From Ceraceosorus guamensis (taxonomy: Eukaryota; Basidiomycota; Exobasidiomycetes; Ceraceosorales; Ceraceosoraceae), in the NCBI RefSeq assembly GCF_003144195.1, contig NW_020290014.1:62001-126000 (forward strand): 64,000 nt of DNA, read 5' to 3'. Position numbers and translations under genes: made by a program. This document shows positions 19,661-56,048 of the stretch, piece after piece (position 1 is the stretch's first letter; each line of letters starts with the position of its first letter). Under the pieces are notes generated by a model. The model did not search any database, was not told the DNA's origin, and saw nothing but the letters and a program-made list of their open reading frames with translations.

Positions 19661-19702
<42 letters not shown>

Positions 19703-28107: not shown

Positions 28108-28838
28108 GGTTTGAAGAGCAAGAGCCACCGAGTAGCCGCGCGCTCCGATTTCGCCGGCTTTTTGGTGAATGAGTGGCAGCTGGACTGAATGAGAGCACCG
28201 AAGGAGGTTGCCGAGGTACGAGGAAAGGAGTCAGAGTCGCGAGTGTCAAGTGAGGAAATCAGTCAAGTTTAAGGTGCCAAAACCCTCTTGGAATCGCGAG
28301 CCAACGATAAGGCGAACATTTATCAGCTGCTCGACATGCAAAAGGGTCTCGAACAATCTGCCGCGGACCCGCTTGTCGCGTGCATGCTGCACGCCCAGAT
28401 GCACGATCCAATCACAAATTAAGGAGCTCGCAATCAGTTCGTGTATGATAGGTGAGGCCGACGATCGAAGGTGCCTATTTAATTATTGGTGATTGTAGCC
28501 CTGCCCCTCACGCACGCAAGCACTCACACTCCATGCAGTCACAGCTGTTCAGTCACTGCGACAAAGGAGCTCAGCTGTGCCAGGAGCTAGCTGGTGAATG
28601 GACACAAAGCGACTCCAGTCGCAGCTGTTCAGTCACTCGTCATTCAGTAAATGCGACAAAGGAGCTCAGCTGTGCCAGGAGTTGGTGAATGGACACAAAT
28701 TAGCGACGTAGGCAAGACGCTGCCATCGCAATTCACAGCTTGACCGATTACTCTCACTCGCGACTCGTAGGTGTGTCGCTCGAAGTCTTGAGGTCTGAGT
28801 CGAGTAGCACAGAGCAGCATACGCACCATCCATACACG
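28108..28838. other. Intergenic region with a duplicated segment
   Basis: Promoter region shared by the divergent DUF4202 and DUF6604 genes. It carries an approximate tandem duplication (listed separately). No gene seen. Confidence 0.5.
28542..28707 (+). repeat. Tandem duplication of an ~80-95 bp segment
   Basis: Copy 1 (28542-28613) and copy 2 (28622-28707) share cagctgttcagtcact, then gcgacaaaggagctcagctg followed by tgccaggag, then ggtgaatggacacaaa and gcgac. Copy 2 has a short insertion (about 15 bp) after the first block, and copy 1 carries an extra ctagc. It lies about 130 bp upstream of the DUF6604 start. Confidence 0.9.
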
Positions 28839-31794
28839 ATGGCAGGTCCACGCTTTGTGCGGAGTCGGTATGAGCAGTACAAGCGAGATACGCAAGAGAT
28901 CGCTAACTGGTTGGGCAGAGAAGCATTGCGTCATGGCTTCAATTTGGGCAGTCTGGTAGCTGCAACGCAGTCAGAGTCATCGGAGGATGTCAATATTAAG
29001 AAGAAGAAGAAGAAGCAAAAGAAGAAGAACGGGAAGAAAAGTAGTCAGAGTCAAAGTTCGAGTCAAAGTCTCCAGACTTCCACCTCGACTCTGACATCTG
29101 CAGTCCAGCAGCTCGAGCTGGGCAGCGATGCACGTGTACAAGCTTCGGTCGAGGGCGAGCAGGCCAAAGAGGCTCTACAAGACGACGACGACGACGACGA
29201 CGACGACGAAGAAGACGAAGATGATCAAGCTGCTCCCACGCTCGCGCAGACCAGCAGCAGTACCGGCATCAAACAGCACGCACAGCAATTGCGCGGCAAG
29301 TTCGTCCTCAGGACTGCCCAATACACGCAGATAGCCAGGTACCTCGTGCAAAGAGGCGTGGCTATTCCATCCGAGGTTCGCACCCTTGTTCAGCGCTGCA
29401 GCAATCGAAGATCTGCCTTTTTACGAGCATCGGCCGGCAATGAGACCTATGACAAAGCTGGGCATAACCATTTCATCTCAGTCTTGGGAGAAGTCAGCGC
29501 CATATTCGGTCGTGCCCCTGCAGGCGAAGCAAAGTCGAACAATGGCGCATCGGCATCGGGTGCACAGCAACTGCCAGGTCGCACGGAAGTGCTCGAGACT
29601 CGAGCATCACCGCTCGCTGGTGGTCCGACTTCGGACAACCCGTATGCCCCTTTGCTCAACCTATTCTCAGGAGCGGATGAGGGCACCGAGCTTCCGGATG
29701 TGCGCTTACCTGGCACTAGACCTGCAGAGGGTGCCAAAGATCCCGCCTCGGAAGCATCGTTCGAGGTCGAGATGAGTCGCGACTTTGCACTCCTCTTGCT
29801 CCTCAGCTTCTACGACGACTTGCACGAAGTGCGGCAGCACATCAAGACGCTATGGATCGACTACCGTGAGGGTCGCATCGACTTGATCACGGCTTCCGTC
29901 ACCAGCAATGCCGGTCTAGAATTGCTGCGAAAGCCGCACGATGAAGTGATGAAGGTCATTGCTTTGTACTACGACGACTGGATGGCAGCTGGAGCAGCCC
30001 TGTTCCTCGTGCGTCAAATGCTCTTCCTCCTCTTGGATCAGATCGACTTGACCCTTCGAAACTTCGACGACCCTGACATCGAAGCGTGTCCACAGCTCAG
30101 TCGAGATACGCTAGAGTACCTCTTCTTGCCCAACCTCTCCATCATGAGGGGCGTAGCCGATATATCTCTCGCCAACCACGTACCGCTGTGCAAACCCGGT
30201 CACTTTGGCAAACTCACCCCGACCACCACCCCCGAAAGTTGGAGCTTTACCAAGCGAAATGAGCAGTTGACCGTCTTGTTGACAGAGTCACTGCCAGAGT
30301 ACTGGCTAGTACCCCCATTTGAGCTTCCTGGCGCTAGGGACATGCGCTCCGGCACAGTTGATGCAGAGGTGCTCGATCCCAACGACCCCAGCAACGACTA
30401 TCGCGCCGACGAGCTGTCTTTGGAGATGAGTCATCTCCGTCGTACTGGTCAGTCTGCTCTTAATCTTCTACACCCAAGTCTTTGCCGACATCAATTGGGT
30501 ACTCGGAGAGAAGGTCAAAGAGGGTCTTGCGCTTTTGCGGTCATCCGCCAGTGGTATGGCTCGAACCATGAAGAATCGCCGAAAGGTGGAAGGACCGGTC
30601 GCGCCGAATGGTTGGCCTAGGGGCAACGAAGTGCTCATCGAACGCTTCACCGAACGTGCCGACGCCTGGTCTAGGACGGATTTGATTGCGCAGTCGAAGA
30701 TCATGTTTGCCAGAAGGCTTGGTGCTCCGCTGGAAGATTTCAAAGAAAGCCTCTTGCTACCTCGCAATCCGCTATTTTGCGGTGTGCAGCTGTTCAAATT
30801 TCAGCTCGAATACCAAATGATGGGCTTCACGATAGCGAATGCGTGGTCGAGCATCTTGATGACGGTGCATCTTTTCGTGGCGTGCCGCAATCAAGAAAAG
30901 TCTCTGGACCGACCGGCAAATCTGGACTGGGCGGACCTTGATCTAGTGATGGAGCTACATGGAGTGGAAGATATCTTTGGCGGCCCCATCCCGAAGAATG
31001 TCATCGACTCGATGTGTGGCTTCATGAGTGCCCAGAATTGGCCCGAAGATGCCGTTCACTCTTTCAAGCGCTGGTTGAACGGAGGAACGTCACAGAATGA
31101 CCTTGCGCGCATACAGCAAGCGCAGAGGCACACCTTTGACTGTCCGCTGAAGCCCTTTCAGGACCACTCACAGATGCTCCAAATTTTTCAAGAAAAGTAT
31201 CGCAGTCGCAAGCAGCTGCATTCCGACATCGACATCAACTACATCCAGCAATTGCTTTCCGACTTGAAGCGAAAAGAAGAAGAGGCGGAAGAGGCAGAGA
31301 TGCAGAGTACCCAAAAGGGCAAGAAAACGCGCGGAAAGAAGCAAGGAGTGCGAGGTCTTCGAAGGAGTCGCAAGCACAACGATCAGAAATTCTCGATTGT
31401 ACAGCTGCTTTCCGTGCTGGAGGTAGGGCTGATACGCGAGACGGCGTCTATTCGGTTCGACTACGTGTCGATGCATCTGAGGTGTGTGGAGTTCCTCAAA
31501 GAGGTGAAACGGGAAGTGAACGAGTACTTTACGCGCAAGCACGGAGCTACTTGGATCGAAGATGATACTCAAATCGCCTATGTGGCAGGCTACATCTTGA
31601 CGGCTGCATCTTTTAGCCAACTCGGCGCGAGCCAGCTGGGCTTGCAGCAAGCAATCTCTAAAACGGGCGCGTGGGTCGCCAGCAAGGTTCTTTACGACGC
31701 TACAAGAGTGTTTCGTAGGGTGTTGGGCGAAAGTCAAGCTGGAGATGCCGAGATTCGCAAGATTGCACTCAGTCGAGCCAGAGCGGAGAGATGA
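28839..31794 (+). CDS. DUF6604 domain protein
   Basis: Exons 28839-30447 and 30479-31794; 974 residues. The N-terminus RYEQYKRDTQEIANWLGREA matches the start of fungal DUF6604 proteins. A Lys-rich block (residues 50-65), an Asp/Glu run (10 Asp from a GAC repeat near 29180) and a conserved-looking FVLRTAQYTQIARYLVQ segment follow. The second half is helical and ends in a basic region. The intron is only 31 nt (gtcagt...ccaag). It is required to keep frame between RRT and VFADINWVLGEKVKEG; otherwise the gene would be frameshifted. Function unknown. Confidence 0.75.
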
Positions 31795-44700: not shown

Positions 44701-45302
44701 GATGCATGAATGTCTGACGCAACGTAGCCAAGTAATGACGCGGGTGCATTAGGCTCAGCGCTATGGACTCGATTCGATGTGGCCTCGGCCAGCGCGCTTC
44801 GGCCTCGACAGACTGGTCGAGCCCCTCGTCGCATCACGACACAGTCACTTCTCAACTATGCCTACAATCTAGAGCTCAATCGTGAATGGGGTGATGCAAC
44901 GGATGTTTTGCAAGCGCGAAATCCGGCGTCCGAGTCAGCCGGTCAATCACGCTAAGAGCATCACCGATCCTCATTCTTCGCGACGCAGCACGAGCCCCCG
45001 TCGCAGGTGAGCATCGGAGAGCGAAGTGCTGGGACCCCCTGGAGTAGCTCGAGTGGATGACAGGCAAAACCCACAAGCCAGAGCTCCACACCTAGCTACG
45101 ACTGTACTTCTTCCTAAATGCACGACGATCTATCAGCAGCTGCAGACATGCGGTAGTAGCCTGGGCCAGCAGAAGTACAAATATCGCCATGTTTCGCGCT
45201 CTCGCTGAGCTCTTTCCCATGCCCACAAATCCCTCACGCCATTGACATCCGCCCTCCCTCCTCTCGCACTTCCTTTGTTCGACCCTACAGCCCCGGAACA
45301 CC
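41711..45302. other. 3.6 kb intergenic region
   Basis: No gene I can support. It holds a tRNA-like 3'-half on the minus strand (listed separately), AT-rich TTTGATAT repeats near 42290-42320, a TATATAAA at 42402-42409, and scattered CACGA motifs. A 104-codon minus-strand frame (42660-42974) has no recognisable domain. Confidence 0.45.
42254..42282 (-). other. tRNA 3'-half-like sequence (possible relic)
   Basis: Read on the minus strand, GGGTTCGATCCCC followed by TGGCTGGTCA resembles a T-arm/B-box with a 3' acceptor strand. No matching 5' acceptor (GACCAGC) or A-box occurs at the right distance, and only three of five T-stem pairs form well, so it is not called as a tRNA gene. Confidence 0.2.
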
Positions 45303-46305
45303 ATGCGCGCCTTCAACATCGTCCTCGGCCTGGCCGCTGTCATGCTGCCCAGCATGCACGCGGTGCCAGTGCAATCCATCTCCGAACGACAGTCGACCGA
45401 CCAGCCAAGCACCATCGACGGCACTCCGTTCCGCCTGGCAGTCCGATATGCGCAGGGCGCATATTGCCAGCCCTCTCTGCAACGTCTACTCTTTTCGAGA
45501 GGTCGGGTCATCTACGTTGCCGGCGACAACGCAAGGCTACCGATCACCTTCGTGGCTTACGACGAGCTGACCAACAAAGTCGTCGTCTCGCACCAGGGTA
45601 CCAAGTAAGTTTGCAGTGCTCTGCCTGATGGAGCAGCGATGTGCCGGCCAACCTGAATCCTTCGCTGACTGTATTCGACTTTTTTTCCGCCCATGCCCCG
45701 TTCGCAGCCCCACATCTGCGGAGTCCGTGTACATCGATGCGCAATATTTGCCCACATTGCCAGACCGCAGGCTGAACGGCTGTGTCGATCCTGGCTCCGC
45801 GATGCACACCGGTTTTCAAAAGGCCTGGGCAGACACTGCTGACCCGATCTTGGCAGCAGTCAAGGAGCAGCTGACCGCGCATCCTGGCGCCACGCTTCTG
45901 GTCACCGGACACTCGCTCGGTGCTGCCCTAGCCACGCTGGACAGCGCTTATCTGCGATGCAATCTTCCAGATGTACCGCTGCAGACCACCGTACTGGGAT
46001 TGCCCCGCGTGGGAAACAGCAAATTTGCGGACAGCATCGACAGGCTACACAACGGCACCTTCCACTACCTGGTCAATGGTCAAGATCCCGTACCTCACAT
46101 CCCATTCCGGCAGCTTTCTTACGAGCACCCCACTGGAGAGGTGTGGATCAACCCGGCCAACGAGAACGAAGCCCTTAGCTGCCCAGGAAGAGAGAATTCA
46201 AGGTGCTCCAACTCGGTCGACCCGAGAACCTACAACATCGGAGACCATATTGGGACCTACTTCGAAAGACAACTCACTGGTTTCCCATCGCCCAACCTCT
46301 GCTAA
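45303..46305 (+). CDS. Secreted class 3 (fungal) lipase
   Basis: Exons 45303-45604 and 45708-46305; intron of 103 nt; 299 residues. The N-terminus MRAFNIVLGLAAVMLPSMHAVP is a signal peptide with cleavage after ...MHA. The nucleophile elbow is TGHSLGAALA; the Asp lies in NGQDPVPHIP and the His in GDHIGTYF, a complete Ser-Asp-His triad of the Rhizomucor/Thermomyces lipase and feruloyl-esterase class. HQGTN marks the strand before the lid, split by the intron. Six or more Cys suggest disulfides. The length is close to the family's usual 280-300. An extracellular triacylglycerol or related ester hydrolase is expected. It borders the CC-peptide gene cluster. Confidence 0.93.
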
Positions 46306-46892: not shown

Positions 46893-48017
46893 TTAGCAGT
46901 CTTTAAGGCCTTCACCGCCGCAACCCAAGCAGCAGGGCTGCGTGCCGTCGGTGCAGCAGCTGTCGCGCTTCACCATCCTGTTGGCAACGGGGCTCCAGAT
47001 CATCTCAACGTCGGCCGCAGCATTGGGGGCGCGCTCATTCAAGCTGTTCTTGTCGGCATCGAAGAGATTCACACTGCGTGGCTAATGGCAGAGAGAAAAA
47101 AATCGCTGAGAGGGTCAGACGCTTGCTCAGCACTCAGCGAGAATATCAAGAGCTTGCCTACGCACGAAGTGAGGTCGGTGGGGGTCAGTATGGCAGCATG
47201 ACTTGTTGTTAGGAGGACAATCACATTCCGGGGGACCACCAGTGGGCGCGCGCTCTTCCAGGGTGTTTGTGTCCGCATCGAAGAGATCGACACTGCGTGG
47301 CTGTTGGCAAGAATGAGAAACGCTGAGAGGGTTAGTCGCTTGCACAGCTCTCAGAGGGCATCTGAATGGCTTGGCTATGCACCTTGTGAGGATTGTGTTC
47401 GCAGCATGCTCCGGTGCAGCACGTCGAGTTGGGGTTGACTGGAGCACATTGACATCCCGGGGGAATGCCAGTGCGCGCGCGCTCTTCCAGGCTGTTTTTG
47501 TCCGCATCGAAAAGATCGACACTGCGTGGCTGTTGGCAAGAAACAGAAAGGCTGAGAGAATCAGTCGCTCGCACAGCTCTCAGAGGGCATCTGGATGGCT
47601 TGACTATGCACCTCGTGGGAATCGGGAAGTCCGAGTCCCCAGCAATCACCGGTGCAGCACGTTGAGTTGGCAGGGTTAGGAGGACATTCGCATCCAGCGG
47701 GAATGCCAGCGCGCTCTTGAAGAGAAACGCCAGACGTCGCACCGTTCTGTGAAGCTGTCGAGCGCTGTCATGGGGATTTGTAGAATGTGAATACGTCAGC
47801 AGTCACATCAGTGCGACCTGACAGTTGTCAAGTCACAACTCACGAAGAGAGAATTCGAGGCCGCAAATTGGTGTAGGCTCCAAAATCAGTATCGACGCAT
47901 GAAAGCCCTAGCATAGGAGAGATCGACATGCGCACCTACTATGGGCTTGGCATTTACGCTTAGAAGCGCTGCAAGGAGCGCCAAGAAAGCGAAGAAGCAT
48001 AGACGCAGATAGTACAT
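46893..48017 (-). CDS. Secreted Cys-doublet protein built from duplicated exons
   Basis: Proposed exons 47936-48017, 47612-47754, 47383-47529, 47166-47300 and 46893-47081; 231 residues. MYYLRLCFFAFLALLAALLS is a signal peptide, and a phase-1 intron follows codon 27. Exons 2-4 are related phase-0 modules with the pattern LEERARTGIPPGCQC...NSTCC; exons 3-5 each begin PRSV(D/N)LFDAD. Exon 5 ends the protein with MVKR followed by DSCCTDGTQPCC and LGCGG, a CC-x6-CC peptide after a KR site. The introns between exons 2/3, 3/4 and 4/5 are also alike, so exon plus intron were duplicated as ~230-bp units. The first acceptor (47755) was chosen for phase; an extra small exon near 47840 is possible. A TATA-like TATATG lies about 120 bp upstream. 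No known family is recognised. Confidence 0.75.
47166..47612 (-). repeat. Tandem exon-intron duplication units
   Basis: Three successive introns start gtgcatag, gtgcatag and gtgcgtag and end in gccaacag, gccaacag and gccattag. They share blocks such as ctctgagagctgtgc and ccctctcagcg. Adjacent exons share the PRSVDLFDAD coding start. The period is about 220-230 bp. Confidence 0.85.
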
Positions 48018-49271
48018 TCTGCTCACAATCGGAAGCTTCAGGTGTTTTGAGAATGTCAGGGGAAAATGGTCGGAAGAGCTGTTACGAGGGAGATGAGACG
48101 AGATTCACCTACTTGACGAATGAGCACGGCTTCATATACAATGTGGAAACAAGGAACGCATGAAGACCCAAACGCTCCTTTCGTAGCGCCCAAATGAATC
48201 ATCCGAGACGAGTCAAATCGCGGCGCCGCATCGGAGCACCTTACCGTCGCACAATCGAAGAGACCAGTCATCCCTTGAGCGCACACAAGGGTCAGGACCA
48301 AAGGGTCGGTCTGCTAGGGGCCGACTCAAATGTCTTATCTCGTATGCTCCGTTGATATGTCATTGCGCCAAGATCATCAATTTCCCCTTCAAACGGGCCC
48401 CATGGCCCAATCGACGTGCCGGAACACACCGCCGCCACTCCGAAATCCAATCTTGGCTTGGCTGCAAGCTCGGCACACACGGCTATGGCGGCATTGGCCA
48501 CGGAGAACGGTCCGTCGATTAGGAGCACAAATGCCCGGCGATGGCATCCTAGGCGAACAGTACGTCCTGAAGCCCGCTACACAGCGAGGCGTTGCGGTCT
48601 GTATTTTGCTCCTTGGCTGTTGGCTTAACGGCGGCCCGCATCGATTGCAGTGTCCTCATGTATTTTCAAGTCATCAATTGGGCGGTCTGATCGATCCATG
48701 GAGGCGCACAGGCATCACGAGCAGCGCAGAGCCAAGGTGAGTATGCCTGTCGATTGCTTGCAAATACAACACTTGGCGGGCGGTTCACGAACGACTCTCG
48801 TGGTCATGCCGCCTCATCCATCAAGAAAACAATCGGTCTCTTCATTGCCTACAATCTGCAGTCCATGCGACTTTCAGAAGGCTTTCGAAAGCTCCTAGCT
48901 CTTCACTATAGCCCGCAACAAGGCTGATAGCTCAGCAGAAAGAGACAAGGACCGAACAACGCATTCGACTTAAGAGCCAGACGGGTCGCGAGGTGCAAGA
49001 CGTCATCCGATTCGACGAACGTCTACGTTTGGCAGATCATCATCCGATGACCTCCACGAAGACCTGTTATGCCTACAAATGATTGACCGGATTGCCTTGG
49101 CGCGGCGCCCTTTAGTCTCCCAAATTTCCGTGTCTTGCAAAAGTGTCTTGGGACCACAGGCCGACGATCGTTTCAGCTTGGTGTTGCTCGACGCGCTGAT
49201 GTTGCACTACACAGCTTTTGGAGGGCCCCGCCCCACTCAGTTGGGGTCACCGCGGCCCTGCCATTCACTCG
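48018..49271. other. Intergenic region inside the CC cluster
   Basis: About 1.25 kb with no gene I can support; open frames are short and lack signal peptides. Confidence 0.45.
48134..48139 (-). promoter_or_regulatory. TATA-like element upstream of duplicated-exon gene
   Basis: TATATG on the minus strand about 120 bp before the ATG at 48017. The spacing resembles the TATA boxes of the other genes of this group. Confidence 0.35.
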
Positions 49272-49853
49272 TCATCGCGAGCGCAAAGCTACGAAACACA
49301 GGGTTTTGGTCAGCGGACTTGACGAGGCCTGTCTTCCGACTGCGCCTGCACAAGCCCTCTTCAAGGTCACCCTCTCTAATGAGTCACGCACCAGGCCTGG
49401 TCCGCATCGGATGGGACAACAGGGGTCTAGGTCCGTCTCGCAGCACTCAGGCGAACGCCTGTACAGGCCCCGTCGGGTGAGAGCCATGCTCACCCACGAG
49501 CGCGACTGCAAGAGCAAAGTTCGGATCAACGTTGCGCACTGAAATGCCCTCGAGCACACTACCCTTACCGGATTGTGAGACCGGGCGTGAAGAAGTCGAG
49601 CTATAGGTGTCAACTAGGGCGAGAGCGCACTGTCAGTACGTGGGTGAGGCTGTGTAGCCGATCTGCTCGCTAGACTCACTTGAAAAGCGTCGTTGGAATG
49701 CAGATGGCCATGCAACAGATTTGGTGCTCAGAGGTGGTACTGCCTACAATCGGTACGGACTCGTGACTCACCAGAGTCGGCGTTGGCCTTCGACTTCAGC
49801 GGCACCAGAACGCTTGCCAAACATACAAAGGTGAGAAGGCGAAATTGATGCAT
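49272..49853 (-). CDS. Secreted peptide precursor with one CC-x6-CC motif
   Basis: Proposed exons 49772-49853, 49680-49726, 49569-49613 and 49272-49505; introns of 45, 66 and 63 nt; 135 residues. The first exon is 82 nt, 27 codons plus one base, the same layout as in the two other long genes of this group, and encodes the signal peptide MHQFRLLTFVCLASVLVPL. Mid-protein there is RR, then GLYRR followed by SPECCETDLDPCCPIRCGPG, a CC-x6-CC peptide preceded by a dibasic site. The tail has further basic sites (LKR, GR). The exon chain was chosen because all phases agree and the later splice sites are strong (gtgagt/ccctag, gtaagg/ctcttgcag). The first intron could instead use nearby acceptors that lead to other frames. 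TATATAA lies about 110 bp upstream. No known family. Confidence 0.6.
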
Positions 49854-49957
49854 AGCAAGAGCGATCTTGGCTGACTTGTGGGTTTGGTGGGTTTGTCAGA
49901 TTTGCTTTCGCTAAAGTTGAGGGGGGGATTGCTTGAAGAGGGGCGCAGGCGCTGCTG

Positions 49958-49965
49958 TTATATAA
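49958..49965 (-). promoter_or_regulatory. TATA box of the 49.3-49.9 kb peptide gene
   Basis: TTATATAA, palindromic, 105-112 bp upstream of the ATG on the minus strand. Confidence 0.55.
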
Positions 49966-50484
49966 CCAAGCTAGGATCCATAGTGACATTTTCACATCGC
50001 CTCAGTCCTTAAGCACTTGGTCTTGTCTCCGTTGAGACGTAGACGACATCGGCATGTCACCGTCAGCTGTCGCGATGGTAGCATGGCAAACGACGCCAAT
50101 AAGCCAGAGTTGCCGGAATAGAGTGCTCTCGTCGGACGTGAAACGATAACGATTGAGTTGGGATTGGCTGGCACAGTTGCGGAACGTCGTCTCATAACTT
50201 CTGCTTGACGGTCGCACATCCCGACACGGACTCACTCTTTGTCACATATTGCATTGCTATGTCGCACCCTCTGAACAGCCGAGTAATCGCACCAGCAGCC
50301 CTGTCGCCTAATTTGCGCTAATCAGTCGCGATCACAGAGTCATAGACTCCGTGGCTATTGACTGCTTTTGACTCAAATGTGATGACTGACTAGTCGTGAT
50401 TCTCACCCGGGGCGTAGCCCGGCCGGTCCCGATTCACATCCAGGTGAATACAGCCCTTTAGATGGCATGGATGCATCGGTGCGT

Positions 50485-50528
50485 GAGTGTCAGTGGATAC
50501 CGGCATGAGTGTCAATGAGTACCGGCAT
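50485..50528 (+). repeat. 22-bp tandem direct repeat (two copies)
   Basis: Copies 50485-50506 and 50507-50528 share gagtgtca, then tg and taccggcat, with two or three mismatches. Confidence 0.85.
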
Positions 50529-51756
50529 ACTCACTGACCACTGGACCCATGCTTCTGCAAAGTCACGAGCATGTGATGACTCGCGTGTGCCAAGTTCCAC
50601 TCGTCAGCGTCCCGCGCGCAACACTGCTTGCTGCTGCTGCTGCAACTCTCTAACTCTTTGACGCCGTGACATCCATGACACATCACATGTAAGCTGCGAG
50701 TGTGGCGGCGCGTGGCGACGCACACATAGAACGCTCTAATGCAGTAGTGCGTGAGTCGATTGTGGGGCCTGCCTAATGACGACGCCTCCCCAAGACATTG
50801 CCTCCTGGAAGGGATACAGCTGGCGCGGATGACATTGCTACCACCCCTCAGCAAAATTGCACAGATCAGAAGAGCACAGGTACTTGAGCCTGCTGAGCGC
50901 GTCCATTTGAATTGCCTGTGCTTCAGCATTCCGAAGAAGCTCTGCGCATACGATCGATCGAGACGACCGGCAACCTTCGTTCTGATCTTGATGCTCCATG
51001 GCTCGAATCCAGTCCGTCGCCTCTGTGGCAGCATCCGAGATCTCCGATGTTTACCTTGGGCTGTGAGTGCAACATATGAGAACTAAAAAAAGATTGGCAC
51101 CATTCAGGACGTGGTAGGTCGAAGACGTCGCCCTGACTTTCCGCACTAGTCATCGCGGATCTGCTCCGGCTCGTATCAATCACAAGACTCGCTTGCCTAC
51201 CAGTGACGTAGGTTGGACGTCGTTTTATCCAACGCGCTTTACCGTCTTGCGTCGAGGTCCGCGCTGCGGTCCCGACCGTGGTACTTGCCCAGGTATTCTG
51301 AAAGTTGCAACTTTGGCGAATCTTGTCGAACAAAGCGGAATTCCTGAGGCGCGACGGTAGTGAGTAGTCTGCGCTGACATGGAAGCATACGAAAGCTCAC
51401 GTTGCTTGGCAATAAAATGCCGTTCGTGCCTGATGAAACCGGGAAGGCATCCCTCTGCGCTTCCGCTTACTTTGCTGCGGAGCGAAGACGAGCACAATGG
51501 CTCCAGGGGCTAGCGGACTGAGGATTGTCAGAGCCTGCGTTTGGCCGGCATCTGAAAGATCCTGAGTACTGGCATGCCATCGCGAGGTGACACCATGCCA
51601 AAGTGACTTTTCGGGACAGTCTATTTGCGAGCAAGGTTACTGGGCTCGGAATCATCCATTCGGCTGCGTCAACGGAATCGATCATCAGCAGAGCTTGGAG
51701 GACGCACTGAGGCATTTCCCAAGTCAACAGCAGGGAAGATAAAGGCTCGCTGCTGG

Positions 51757-51762
51757 TATAAA
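51757..51762 (+). promoter_or_regulatory. TATA box of the 51.9 kb peptide gene
   Basis: TATAAA 163 bp upstream of the ATG at 51920. Confidence 0.5.
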
Positions 51763-51919
51763 GAGCGCTTCAGTGGCGCTGATGACTTCGCCCAGTCCGA
51801 TCTGATGAGTCTCTCACACTGTAAGGGAAATCGACACGAAGCACCGGTAAACACTCATTTTTCCATCCTTGGGCCTGCGACCAGCAAATCCTTCTCACCA
51901 CTCACTAGGAGGTGACAGA

Positions 51920-52324
51920 ATGCTCATACTCCGACTCGATGTGGCAGCCTTCATGCTCATGTTGACGGGTCTACTGGCGTGTGCTCAATGTGAGTTCAAA
52001 TCCGGGAACCATCTACTCGGTCACGAGTTGCGTCGAATTTCGATTACACAACACCGTCCCCATCACTTACCTCTGCTTCTGCATTATGATTCACCGATAG
52101 CGATCGGCACCAAAGAAGTCTTGCCATCCGCTGGCCAAGACCTAGATGTGCGAGACATCAAATGGAGCAAGCGATGGTGTTTGTGCACTATCAACAACGG
52201 AATCTGCTGCCAAGTGGCTCATGAAATGTTGACAATGCCATATAAAGTGAGTTGCGAGCAGCTACTGGACGACTGTCCTGGTGATGCTTCTCGACCGCTC
52301 ACCTCCATTCTATCACAGCGCTGA
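51920..52324 (+). CDS. Small secreted peptide precursor, CLC-x6-CC variant
   Basis: Proposed exons 51920-51989, 52101-52246 and 52319-52324; introns of 111 and 72 nt; 73 residues when spliced. Signal peptide MLILRLDVAAFMLMLTGLL, followed by a phase-1 intron as in its neighbours. A short propeptide ends in SKR, then comes WCLCTINNGICCQVAHEM. The spacing equals CC-x6-CC except that the first doublet is C-L-C. Both introns have gtgagt donors and lengths divisible by three with no in-frame stops, so retention would give longer in-frame isoforms; the unspliced frame ends ...TSILSQR at the same stop. With both introns removed the protein ends in YKR. No known family. Confidence 0.6.
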   Translation: MLILRLDVAAFMLMLTGLLACAQCEFKSGNHLLGHELRRISITQHRPHHLPLLLHYDSPIAIGTKEVLPSAGQDLDVRDIKWSKRWCLCTINNGICCQVAHEMLTMPYKVSCEQLLDDCPGDASRPLTSILSQR

Positions 52325-53396
52325 GTGTATCCAGCTGCAGCCGAACCCAAGAGGTTGTGATGCATGAGCCCAGTCGCTGCGCTGGAGCAGGTCTACTTGG
52401 GTGAAGAGGCCGCTTGATGAATGGCGTCACAATGCTGCCATAGTGCGTTCGGTCCATCGCGCAATGCCAATGTTCGCTCGAATGACACTACTAAAGGAGT
52501 CCTTTGTGGAAGCGATTCCGGCGTGGCATTGAGACACTTTATCTTGAGTCCTTGTTGTCCGGAATTCTCGGACTGTCCTCGTCCGACGAGACTGAGCTGC
52601 TGCGTCTCTTGATGAGTTGAATGTTCTGATCCATTGGCTCCGAGCAAGGAGGCATGCGCTTGCCCGACCGGGAAACAACGAAGGGAGGCCTCTGAGGACA
52701 AGTTCGTCTGTCTGAGATTGAAGGCGACCGTCTGGCAAAGAGCGTCGTCAAAGTCCACTTTGGCACCCACAGTAATCAGCCAGGATCGCCGTGCGTAGCT
52801 AGCGGGCTATGGAGGAGCCAGAGGAACTGCGAGGGTCGTCGATCAGCCACTCACTACTAATCTTATCCCCACGATGAGCACTGAGTGGCAATACGAACGT
52901 TTGAGCACGAGGTAAGGAAGTGTGAGAGGGAGAGTGTCGACATTGGGAAAGTCTGCAAGGAGGACGTCTCTCGAGGGTGCAGTGCAAGCATCGCGCACAT
53001 CAGCATGTTCAAGTGACGATCCCCACGAACGCATGGAAGTCACTTGCCAGGACTCAATGACCATTCTGGCTGCCGGCAAGCCATTCCGGAAGCGAAATGT
53101 GTCAGAGGTTGCTCATTACTAACTTTCTCGTCTCACGGTCCCGTCATCCTCGCAGGTGTCGGAAAGGACCTCCAGACGGGCGAATGCGTTGCAGGCGGTG
53201 CGTGGGTGACTCCTGCTGTCTGACATCTCGCTCAGGGGTGCTGCTCGCGGGAGACGATCCTTTCGTCTATAAAGGGGCCATGTTCTGGCCGTCCTTTGCT
53301 CTCCTAAAGCCTTGACCCACTTACACAAAAACATCGCAATTGACAAGACCCTAGCCTACGTCGAGCCTTGCCAACAACGTCTGTCTCCTCGCCGCC
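52325..53396. other. Intergenic region inside the CC cluster
   Basis: About 1.07 kb. A 63-codon plus-strand frame (52421-52612) is Cys-rich (MASQCC..., ...RLSCCVS) but has no signal peptide, and minus-strand frames overlap it. It was not called as a gene. Confidence 0.4.
53268..53273 (+). promoter_or_regulatory. TATA box of the multi-module CC precursor gene
   Basis: TATAAA followed by GGGG, 129 bp upstream of the ATG at 53397. Confidence 0.6.
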
Positions 53397-55585
53397 ATGC
53401 GCACCACGCGTGGTCTGATCGCTCTTGCGATCTCCTTTGTGGCTGCATCATCATTTGCGCTGTGTAGCCCCGACTCTAGTGAGTCAAATCTCTCGTCCGT
53501 TCGCGCCGTCGAGGTTTGGCGAGTCGCACTCTGCACTGCCAAAGGCTTGCAAAGTCCCGACTTTGTGACTACCGAGCATACCTGTAGCTTCGGAGCTGAT
53601 GTTTTCCCTCTACAACGCTGTGTTCCTCCCGGTATCGGCGGATTCAAAGAGGTGGTTTTGAGCGAACGAGCCCAGATCGACAAGTCAGCCTGCTGCAACG
53701 ACGTCAGTGTTGAATGCTGCGAGTATGTACCTCCCAAGCGAGATCTAGTGCCCATTTCGGACGGACAAAGCGCAATGCCACTTTTACAAAGGGGCACTGC
53801 AATGAACCTGTTCGAGGGTGAGGAAGGTACGTACCACACCACGCATGGTTGCATGCAGCACTCGAGCTGATCTCCCGCTCTCCCACAGAACATCGCTCGG
53901 AGAAGTCAAGCGTGAGACAGAGAGACCTGAAGACTAGACAATTCGAGAGTAATTGCTGTCAGCCAATCCGACTACCGTGCTGCGCCCTGCCACCCCTTCG
54001 CCGCCAGACTTTGGCCACCCTCCAGAGCCGCGAGACATTGGCAGCCGTAGTTGCGAAACGAAGCAACCCTCCGGAAGACGCCGGTCCGTGTTGCAAGGAC
54101 CTAAGTGATCCCTGCTGCGAGCTATATCCTCCTGCCCGATTCGATACGGTAGATGCAACAGCTCAAACACTCGAAGCGAGAAGCGCCAAGACTCTGCCTA
54201 CCCTTCAACGCCAGACTTTGGTCCCTCTGCAGAGCCTCGAGTCGTTGGGAGCCGTAGTTGCCAAACGAACTCATACTCCTGAAGAGCCCTATACGTGTTG
54301 CAACGAAGGAATCGGCCCCTGCTGCGAGCAATTTCCTCCTACCCAAACCCCGTCGGTAGTTACCAAACGAACCAACACTCCGGAAGAGCTCGTCCTGTGT
54401 TGCAAGGACGGAATCGGTCCCTGCTGCGGCGAAGAGCCCTTTCCTCCAAAGAGTTCTATGGCAGTTGCAACAGCTCAAACACTCGAGGTGAGAAGCCAAG
54501 CCTCCGGAACAATGCAGCATATGCTGCAACGAGTAGGCTGATGAGTGTTGCGGGTTTCAGCCTCCTCTTCAAAAGTTCGACAAGATGCCAGAGCGCCGTG
54601 ATATGCAGCTCAAAGAACCTCAACGCGGCGGTGAGTGAGAAGAGCTATAGTCTCTGCGCTGACCAACTACTGATGCCCTTTTTGTGTAACCCAGTATTGA
54701 TGTTGAGGGATGGTCTATTAGAAAAGAGGCAATCCGCCGCCGCACCTCGAGGAGTGGAGGTAAATCCACAGCCCAAAAGGCGCTATTCGCCATACTCACA
54801 AAAGCGAGCATCCTCCACGAGTCCACTCTCCGAGCTGGTGGTCAAAGGTAAGCATTTGGCACCGATGTACCCCGACTGTGACCCGACTTCGGCTTCCGTG
54901 CTGGTCATCTGTTGCAACGGCGTTCGATCTCAAAAGATTACGATCTCGGCGTTGTGGCGGAGCGATTAGCACCTGCACCAACGCCGATTAGGCTTACATG
55001 ACGATCCTTTCCGGCCCCTCCATAGACTTGGTGTATCCCTCAAGGGAGCTCGAAGTACAATCACAAGCAACCGAACTAATGAGGCGTGAAACCTTGGAGC
55101 CTCGACTGGCTCCGAGTCCATGCTGCTACCCTTTCAAGCACCCATGCTGCAAGGAGACCGTCCGACGTGGACTCGAATTGACGACGGAGAGGCGAGTGCC
55201 GACGACGGAGCTGGAACGCAGGCACACCGATGGCAAGCCTTCGACCGACCTGATCCTATCAAAGCGCGACAAGCTCGAACCCAGACAAGTCATTCCTTGC
55301 TGTTTTGGAAAAATCGGTGGTTGCTGCCCTCCTCCTCGTCGATTCCACGAAATCGCGGATCTGATGAGACGCGTCGCGGCGGATGATATGGCACGCCTGG
55401 TATCTTCCACGGAACCAGCAGTGAAGCGAGACGTTCAACGCGAAGATGAGGTGGAGAAGACGAGTGCCCGCGAACAGGGCTCGGACGTACCTTCTGCTAA
55501 AGATGAAAGTCAGAACACCAAGAGGTCTTCCTTGCAGAAGCGCATGCTTGGAGCCGAAGTCCAGCAAGAGAGCGAGTATAGCTGA
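53397..55585 (+). CDS. Multi-module secreted CC-x6-CC precursor with KR/RR sites
   Basis: Proposed exons 53397-53478, 53545-53817, 53889-54487, 54561-54630, 54695-54847 and 55026-55585; 578 residues. The signal peptide MRTTRGLIALAISFVAASSF lies in an 82-nt first exon ending in a phase-1 intron, whose acceptor is uncertain (53544 or 53649; both keep frame). Seven CC-x6-CC modules follow: SACCNDVSVECCEYVPPKR; NCCQPIRLPCCALPPLRR; PCCKDLSDPCCELYPPAR; TCCNEGIGPCCEQFPP; LCCKDGIGPCCGEEPFPP; PCCYPFKHPCCKETVRR; PCCFGKIGGCCPPPRR. Spacers repeat LQSLESLGAVVAKRT(H/N)TPEE and TAQTLE(A/V)RS. Many KR or RR sites flank the modules, so kexin processing into several disulfide-rich peptides in the secretory path is inferred. 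The layout resembles fungal Kex2-processed repeat precursors, but the CC-x6-CC core is not one I recognise. Confidence 0.72.
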
Positions 55586-55655
55586 CGATGCAAAGTCCGA
55601 ACGCGGGACGATGCTGACAGCACACCTTGTCCCTGAATCACCGTCGGTCTTGCAG

Positions 55656-56048
55656 ACGAGCTTCGTGAGAGCTCGCTCGCGAAACGTGAAGCGAGCGAGG
55701 AGACTGGCGTAGTGCGTGAGTTGCTGCAATGGCATCAAAGTCGCTTTGTGTGATGATTGAAGCGCATCACCTTGATTCAGTTCTCACGGCGATCGGCAGG
55801 CGCGAGCGGGATCACACCGAAGAATTTTGCTGCGATCACGGAGAGCCCTGCTGCACCCCGTGATGCCAAACGTGAGGCATCGAAGGCGCGCGTCAAGGGG
55901 TGTGAGTGCCTTCGAAAACACTCTAGCTGGGACAGTGACTAAGTCCAGATTCGCCTGGCCTTGCGATCAAGCTCTGATGGCGAGATGGGCAGGAGAGACC
56001 CCTGAGCACAAGGCGTGCTGTGACCTCGGGCTTGAGTGTTGCAACTAG
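55656..56048 (+). CDS. Terminal or duplicated CC-x5-CC exons (partial model)
   Basis: Downstream of the precursor's stop lie exon-like pieces. Piece 55656-55715 (ELRESSLAKREASEETG) can join in phase to 55781-55863 (RRERDHTEEFCC, then DHGEPCCTP and stop). Directly after that stop, DNA encoding DAKREASKARVKG resembles AKREASEETG, and 55949-56048 encodes TPEHKACCDLGLECCN and stop. Each end carries CC-x5-CC. They may be alternative 3' ends of the precursor gene or a decayed copy of its last exons. I could not connect them to the 55026-55585 exon with a convincing donor. Confidence 0.35.

Follow-up and report, generated by a model that had tools for sequence, protein, structure and literature searches.

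Within 9 kb of the Ceraceosorus guamensis genome, four neighbouring genes (A to D) were found on both strands, each with a predicted precursor that carries one or more Cys-doublet modules. It is proposed that the cluster encodes Kex2-processed repeat precursors that would release short two-disulfide peptides acting outside the cell, a reading to which we assign a probability of about 0.72. The modules, the repeat structure of the precursors, the enrichment of dibasic sites and a kexin-type gene elsewhere in the genome are all read directly from the DNA. The window analysed is a stretch of 64,000 nucleotides (contig NW_020290014.1, positions 62,001 to 126,000), and the features below are given in its coordinates.

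46893..48017, minus strand: gene A, five-exon model, 231 aa; exon 1 is a predicted signal peptide
48017-47936, 47754-47612, 47529-47383, 47300-47166 and 47081-46893, minus strand: exons of gene A, an open spliced model
46929-46958, minus strand: CC-x6-CC of gene A exon 5, with a KR site directly before it
49272..49853, minus strand: gene B, modelled as 49853-49772, 49600-49569 and 49505-49272, 115 aa
49416-49445, minus strand: the single CC-x6-CC of gene B, CCETDLDPCC, with RR before it
51920..52324, plus strand: gene C, modelled as 51920-51989 and 52101-52324, 97 aa
52178-52210, plus strand: CxC-x6-CC of gene C, CLCTINNGICC, a variant in a gene that has no CC-x6-CC
53397..55585, plus strand: gene D, repeat precursor of 603 aa with seven CC-x6-CC modules within 53691-55327
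53397-53826, 53889-54487, 54561-54630, 54695-54847 and 55026-55585, plus strand: exons of gene D, open across four GT..AG introns
54488-54560 (73 nt), plus strand: predicted intron of gene D with a dead module inside (CC-x6-CC pattern at 54522, in-frame TAG)
54910, plus strand: half-module remnant within gene D
55722, 55828-55854 and 56016-56042 (region 55722..56048), plus strand: module remnants past the gene D stop, from the repeat and motif scan

The motifs quoted in the preliminary description (SCCTDGTQPCC, ECCETDLDPCC and CLCTINNGICC) and the seven modules of its large gene were all present. Its gene list lacked exons 2 to 4 of gene A, which carry CxC...CC modules (CxC-x6-8-CC) ahead of the CC-x6-CC module of exon 5, and its region ran to 56048; the gene D frame ends at 55585, and the stretch from there to 56048 contains module remnants. 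The introns of gene A measure 181, 82, 82 and 84 nt and are all GT..AG. Its CxC...CC exons are tandem duplicates with repeat units spaced 219 and 229 nt apart, and exons 3, 4 and 5 each begin with a near-identical pro-sequence (PRSVDLFDADKNSLEER and variants), exon 5 ending in KR-DSCCTDGTQPCC. Gene A exon 5 and gene B share a common extension of PCC, then Cys-Gly, then Gly-Leu. The acceptor and second intron of gene B were chosen among several, and its frame is open without the second intron too. The four modelled introns of gene D have phases 1, 0, 1 and 1. A class 3 lipase gene (PF01764) with a hydrophobic start (45246-46305) adjoins the cluster, and the window also holds a DUF6604 protein (28704-30620), DUF6604 being a family of unknown function.

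The local density of the motif was compared with a background of 229,001 bases, read in six frames and drawn from elsewhere in this genome as 23 stretches, of which 22 lie on the cluster's own contig, C19, and one on contig C106. This background holds three CC-x6-CC matches, one of them inside a Cys run. Nine matches fall in the 9.2-kb cluster against 0.12 expected (Poisson P = 1.3e-14, or 1.8e-13 with the rest of the window added to the background). The window contains 15 matches in total, namely the nine in the cluster, two elsewhere (1907 and 21872) and four in a poly-Cys run at 19664 that were dropped from the count. Since the modules are duplicates, the P value marks a non-random locus and not nine independent events. 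Chance Cys richness was ruled out by this local count.

Common descent of the four genes, as had been argued from their shared intron phase, is supported. In the nine CC-x6-CC modules (A, B and D) all four Cys are invariant, and Pro precedes the second Cys pair in seven (D2-D6, A5 and B). An L-x-x-R pro-motif, read from the sequence, precedes the cores in gene A as well as those in D6 and D7. Nearly all Cys of gene D (28/32) reside in the 14 CC doublets of its seven modules; the other four are single and lie ahead of the first module. The exon-1 peptides of A to D were also found to be more alike than region-preserving shuffles (p = 0.0056 by score and 0.0054 by identities, 5000 shuffles), a comparison in which the shuffles keep the signal-peptide layout and the last residue of each peptide depends on the splice model. 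Taken together, the exon-1 similarity, the invariant Cys, the Pro placement and the pro-motif support the assignment of A to D to one family of predicted secreted Cys-doublet precursors.

The shared signal peptide and the phase-1 intron directly after it, both asserted in the preliminary description, were borne out in part. All four N-termini are hydrophobic and signal-peptide-like, with a best 11-residue Kyte-Doolittle mean of 2.27-2.89, as judged by hydropathy alone and without a comparison set. Donor-like sites, all in phase 1, follow the first 82 nt of coding sequence in A, B and D, the exact length that had been stated for three of the four genes, and the first 70 nt in C. Splicing after the signal peptide agrees with the downstream frame in A, B and C. 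In gene D the frame is open unspliced, so that its intron 1, starting at 53479, is optional. Among the frame-keeping acceptors tried for it, only two are CAG or TAG, giving lengths of 210 and 270 nt. The 270-nt option would delete the first module, and the CAG acceptor of the 210-nt option ends at 53688, just before that module. The 210-nt intron (53479-53688) is an attractive but unproven model, as it would place the first module directly after the signal peptide and take out three of the four single Cys, which lie inside this stretch. Further upstream, TATA-like boxes were noted ahead of the ATG of B (111 bp, about 49964), C (163 bp, about 51757) and D (129 bp, about 53268), and none within 400 bp upstream of gene A. 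By raw count, four 8-mers, forming two reverse-complement pairs, each occur in three of the four upstream regions.

Candidate processing sites are concentrated in gene D, where 20 overlapping [KR]R sites were counted against a shuffle mean of 7.2, and none of 20,000 shuffles reached this number. Every gene D module has a dibasic site within 3-13 residues on at least one side, and all six gaps between neighbouring modules contain one. A site lies close on the N side of seven of the nine CC-x6-CC modules, 9-11 residues ahead in D3-D7 and directly ahead in A5 and B. No such site closely precedes D1 or D2; in both, the only one is 5 residues past the module, on the C side. The dibasic sites attributed to all four genes in the preliminary description are enriched in D and present directly before the A5 and B modules, but gene A has a single one, ahead of its exon 5 core. 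The genome also encodes a kexin-type protein, found as a P_proprotein domain (1.1e-25) in a 518-aa frame that appears by eye to be subtilase-like.

We infer that the products of the cluster are spliced, secreted, cleaved, disulfide paired and active outside the cell. Each signal peptide would take its precursor into the secretory pathway, where kexin would cut between modules at dibasic and probably at some single-Arg sites. The released peptides would be roughly 17-50 residues long, each closed by two disulfides formed from its two Cys pairs. They would then exit the cell as a diversified set whose targets would most likely be host leaf tissue or neighbouring microbes. We favour a putative role as effectors or signals outside the cell. 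Several observations weigh against the proposed processing reading: the N sides of D1 and D2 that lack a close dibasic site, the single such site of gene A, the CxC variant of gene C, the dead modules in and past gene D, the lack of homologues for two queries and the absence of clear positive selection by dN/dS.

Typical antimicrobial peptides are cationic. For the 13 putative mature peptides, whose boundaries were chosen by hand, the net charge was negative in nine, neutral in one and +1 in three (D6, D7 and A3). The acidic majority speaks against classical cationic antimicrobial action, and an antimicrobial role, in which the released peptides harm competing phyllosphere microbes, was judged unlikely. 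It would agree with peptides that are short, Cys-rich, multi-copy and predicted to be secreted, with the three at +1, and with the leaf-surface species of the genus. C. guamensis and C. americanus are described as known only from leaf surfaces, and C. bombacis and C. africanus as leaf pathogens of Bombax (PMC11687029).

A distinctly unlikely alternative is that the products are cell-wall or surface peptides like those of Ustilago maydis Rep1, which would coat hyphae and help attachment or aerial growth. The layout is alike, as Rep1 is described as a precursor cut by Kex2 into 37-residue peptides that govern the properties of the hyphal wall (PMC6339444), and Rep1 and Rsp3 are likewise repetitive secreted proteins of Ustilaginomycotina. 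The modules described here are, however, short, mostly acidic and Cys-paired, as opposed to the amphipathic Rep1 surface peptides named in paper titles. Rsp3 differs from A to D in that it is predicted to be unprocessed and has one Cys-rich region, as described in PMC5923269. No Pfam family matched A to D at E ≤ 1, which also argues against Rep1-like peptides. Rep1 and Rsp3 were absent from the protein-search homologues of gene A and of the gene D piece, and were compared with A to D by description only.

The protein database searched includes C. bombacis and many Ustilaginomycotina. The MBP1 protein of the genome studied here matches that of C. bombacis at 641 of 651 aligned residues (98%), against about 60% for the next named relatives, which agrees with a Ceraceosorus; given the ten differences, it is probably another strain than the C. 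bombacis of the database. With gene A as query, no homologue was found at E ≤ 10 (1255 candidates), and none with a 217-aa piece of gene D (1096 candidates), the latter search having a length filter that leaves full-length relatives of D outside. The preliminary description had named the absence of homologues from every related genome as a finding that would tell against the family, and the result for these two queries goes partly against it. Short orphan genes are often left unannotated. No PDB chain matched gene D at E ≤ 10. In the fungus's own genome (23.8 Mb, 199 contigs), single-exon and single-protein queries gave no convincing second copy, in a search that scored only the best candidates and that distant copies can escape. 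Besides the cluster, the single-protein queries gave one weak match (E 0.17), on contig C106. Its 9-kb surroundings have none of the four Cys patterns scanned for, and it was put down to chance.

The lack of homologues for the two queries would also suit a non-functional locus, that is, a decaying repeat array whose modules are read from leftover frames. The dead modules in the predicted intron of gene D and past its stop also speak for it. The intron at 54488-54560 contains TGCTGC-18 nt-TGTTGC followed by Pro-Pro in the same frame, as are six of the seven live modules of gene D, and the repeat search groups this dead module with the other modules. No such pattern occurred in 2000 dinucleotide shuffles of the intron; with stops permitted, the background holds 6 in 458,002 strand-bases. 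The donor of the intron, GTGAGA, corresponds to GCGAGA in the sister copy, where it lies inside the coding LEARS. The simplest reading is that of a broken module now spliced out, possibly by intronization, a process called rare in Cryptococcus by the title of one study (PMC2740785). With its donor at a site still coding in the sister copy, this intron would provide a directly checkable example. Decay of the gene D frame after 54541 had been suspected first; it was replaced by the GT..AG intron, which restores the frame, and is kept as a rival. Beyond the gene D stop, CC-x5-CC occurs at 55828 and 56016. These remnants are accompanied by KR-like segments (55586-56048), and the segment could represent alternative 3' exons. 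Were there no transcript, the dead modules would fit a decaying array too. A non-functional array was nevertheless considered improbable, as the gene D model has 603 uninterrupted codons over four GT..AG introns, the five exons of gene A are in frame and the Cys in the modules are invariant.

The secretory-pathway route favours disulfides, and four Cys in one separate peptide are few for a metal cluster. Secreted metal-binding peptides, whose Cys doublets would hold copper or zinc in place of disulfides, are therefore regarded as very improbable for products with a predicted secretory route, four Cys per separated peptide and no Pfam family at E ≤ 1, despite the high Cys density of genes A to D (5.3-9.5%) and the spelling CCX5CC in a limpet metallothionein paper (PMC10235030).

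Returning to the proposed processed precursors, the repeat units of gene A point to uneven rates of change. Units 3 and 4 are identical at 58/63 positions in the pro-region, 42/72 in the core and 61/82 in the intron. Identity is lower in the core than in the intron for units 3/4 (p = 0.040) and units 2/3 (p = 0.010), and units 2/4 show no clear difference (p = 0.24), these tests sharing data and their p values being uncorrected. Just two of the core comparisons gave dN above dS, namely units 3/4 of gene A (0.65 / 0.47) and modules 3/5 of gene D (0.30 / 0.19), and dN was below dS in the remaining comparisons of A and D. A short non-core stretch of gene D gave dN about equal to dS (0.122 / 0.116). 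Fast change is therefore seen, and dN/dS gives no clear signal of positive selection on the A and D cores.

The resemblance to T-superfamily conotoxins raised in the preliminary description holds for Cys spacing and fails for copy number and superfamily membership. Framework V conotoxins have CC pairs 4-6 residues apart and a signal, pro and mature layout (PMC4278219), and the spacing is matched by the nine CC-x6-CC modules. The first conotoxin intron is phase 1 too (PMC3862624), whereas conotoxin introns are given as over 3 kb against 62-181 nt in A to D. The superfamily is defined by its signal peptide, to which no kinship would be expected in a fungus, and typically has one mature copy per precursor near the C-terminus. 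The copy number is unlike this in D (seven modules) and A (four), with B and C having one each. The cluster is for these reasons a likeness and not a conotoxin member, and the resemblance is at most convergence. As a tentative and rather doubtful extension, the locus may be a lineage-restricted fungal peptide arsenal convergent on venom design, in which a conserved signal and pro-region, hypervariable bis-disulfide cores, exon and module duplication and the turning of failed modules into introns would yield a changing library of extracellular ligands from one locus.

Granulins have Cys doublets and tandem modules, and one granulin module has twelve Cys. They are like A to D in the first two respects and unlike them in the number of Cys per module, and no granulin domain was among the Pfam results, which gave 0 families at E ≤ 1. 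The spelling CCX6CC does appear in a progranulin review (PMC12021630). UstYa (DUF3328, PF11807), a marker of dikaritin-type RiPPs, had no match in the genome, and 14 control genomes were equally without a match. Among the literature matches listed, with supplements and most papers behind subscription outside the scope, none named a CC-x6-CC peptide family from fungi.

The closest layout is that of the KEPs, which are common in fungi, with 7878 reported in 1345/1461 strains (PMC7329392). As described (PMC6339444, PMC7329392), they resemble gene D, whose start is hydrophobic and signal-peptide-like, in having three or more repeats within the protein, with dibasic sites beside or between them, and a kexin-type gene encoded in the same genome. 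Repeats reach this number in gene D (seven modules) and gene A (four related exons), and B and C have one module each. Kex2 sites lie between the repeats of gene D and not between those of gene A, which is a KEP only in part because of its single dibasic site. Gene D is accordingly best placed with the KEPs by its predicted layout. In PMC6339444, pheromone-like KEP peptides with two Cys are mentioned and no two-doublet motif is, and the main text of the survey (PMC7329392) does not contain the word "cysteine", whereas the modules found here are Cys-paired, with four Cys in two fixed doublets. If the genes are expressed, the fungal KEP repertoire would gain a compact two-doublet disulfide peptide, together with an example, from a smut genus that has both leaf-pathogenic and leaf-surface species, of a conserved pro-region next to a fast core and of modules that arise and die. 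KEPs are already known; what is new here is the module built on Cys doublets, with its evolution by birth and death.
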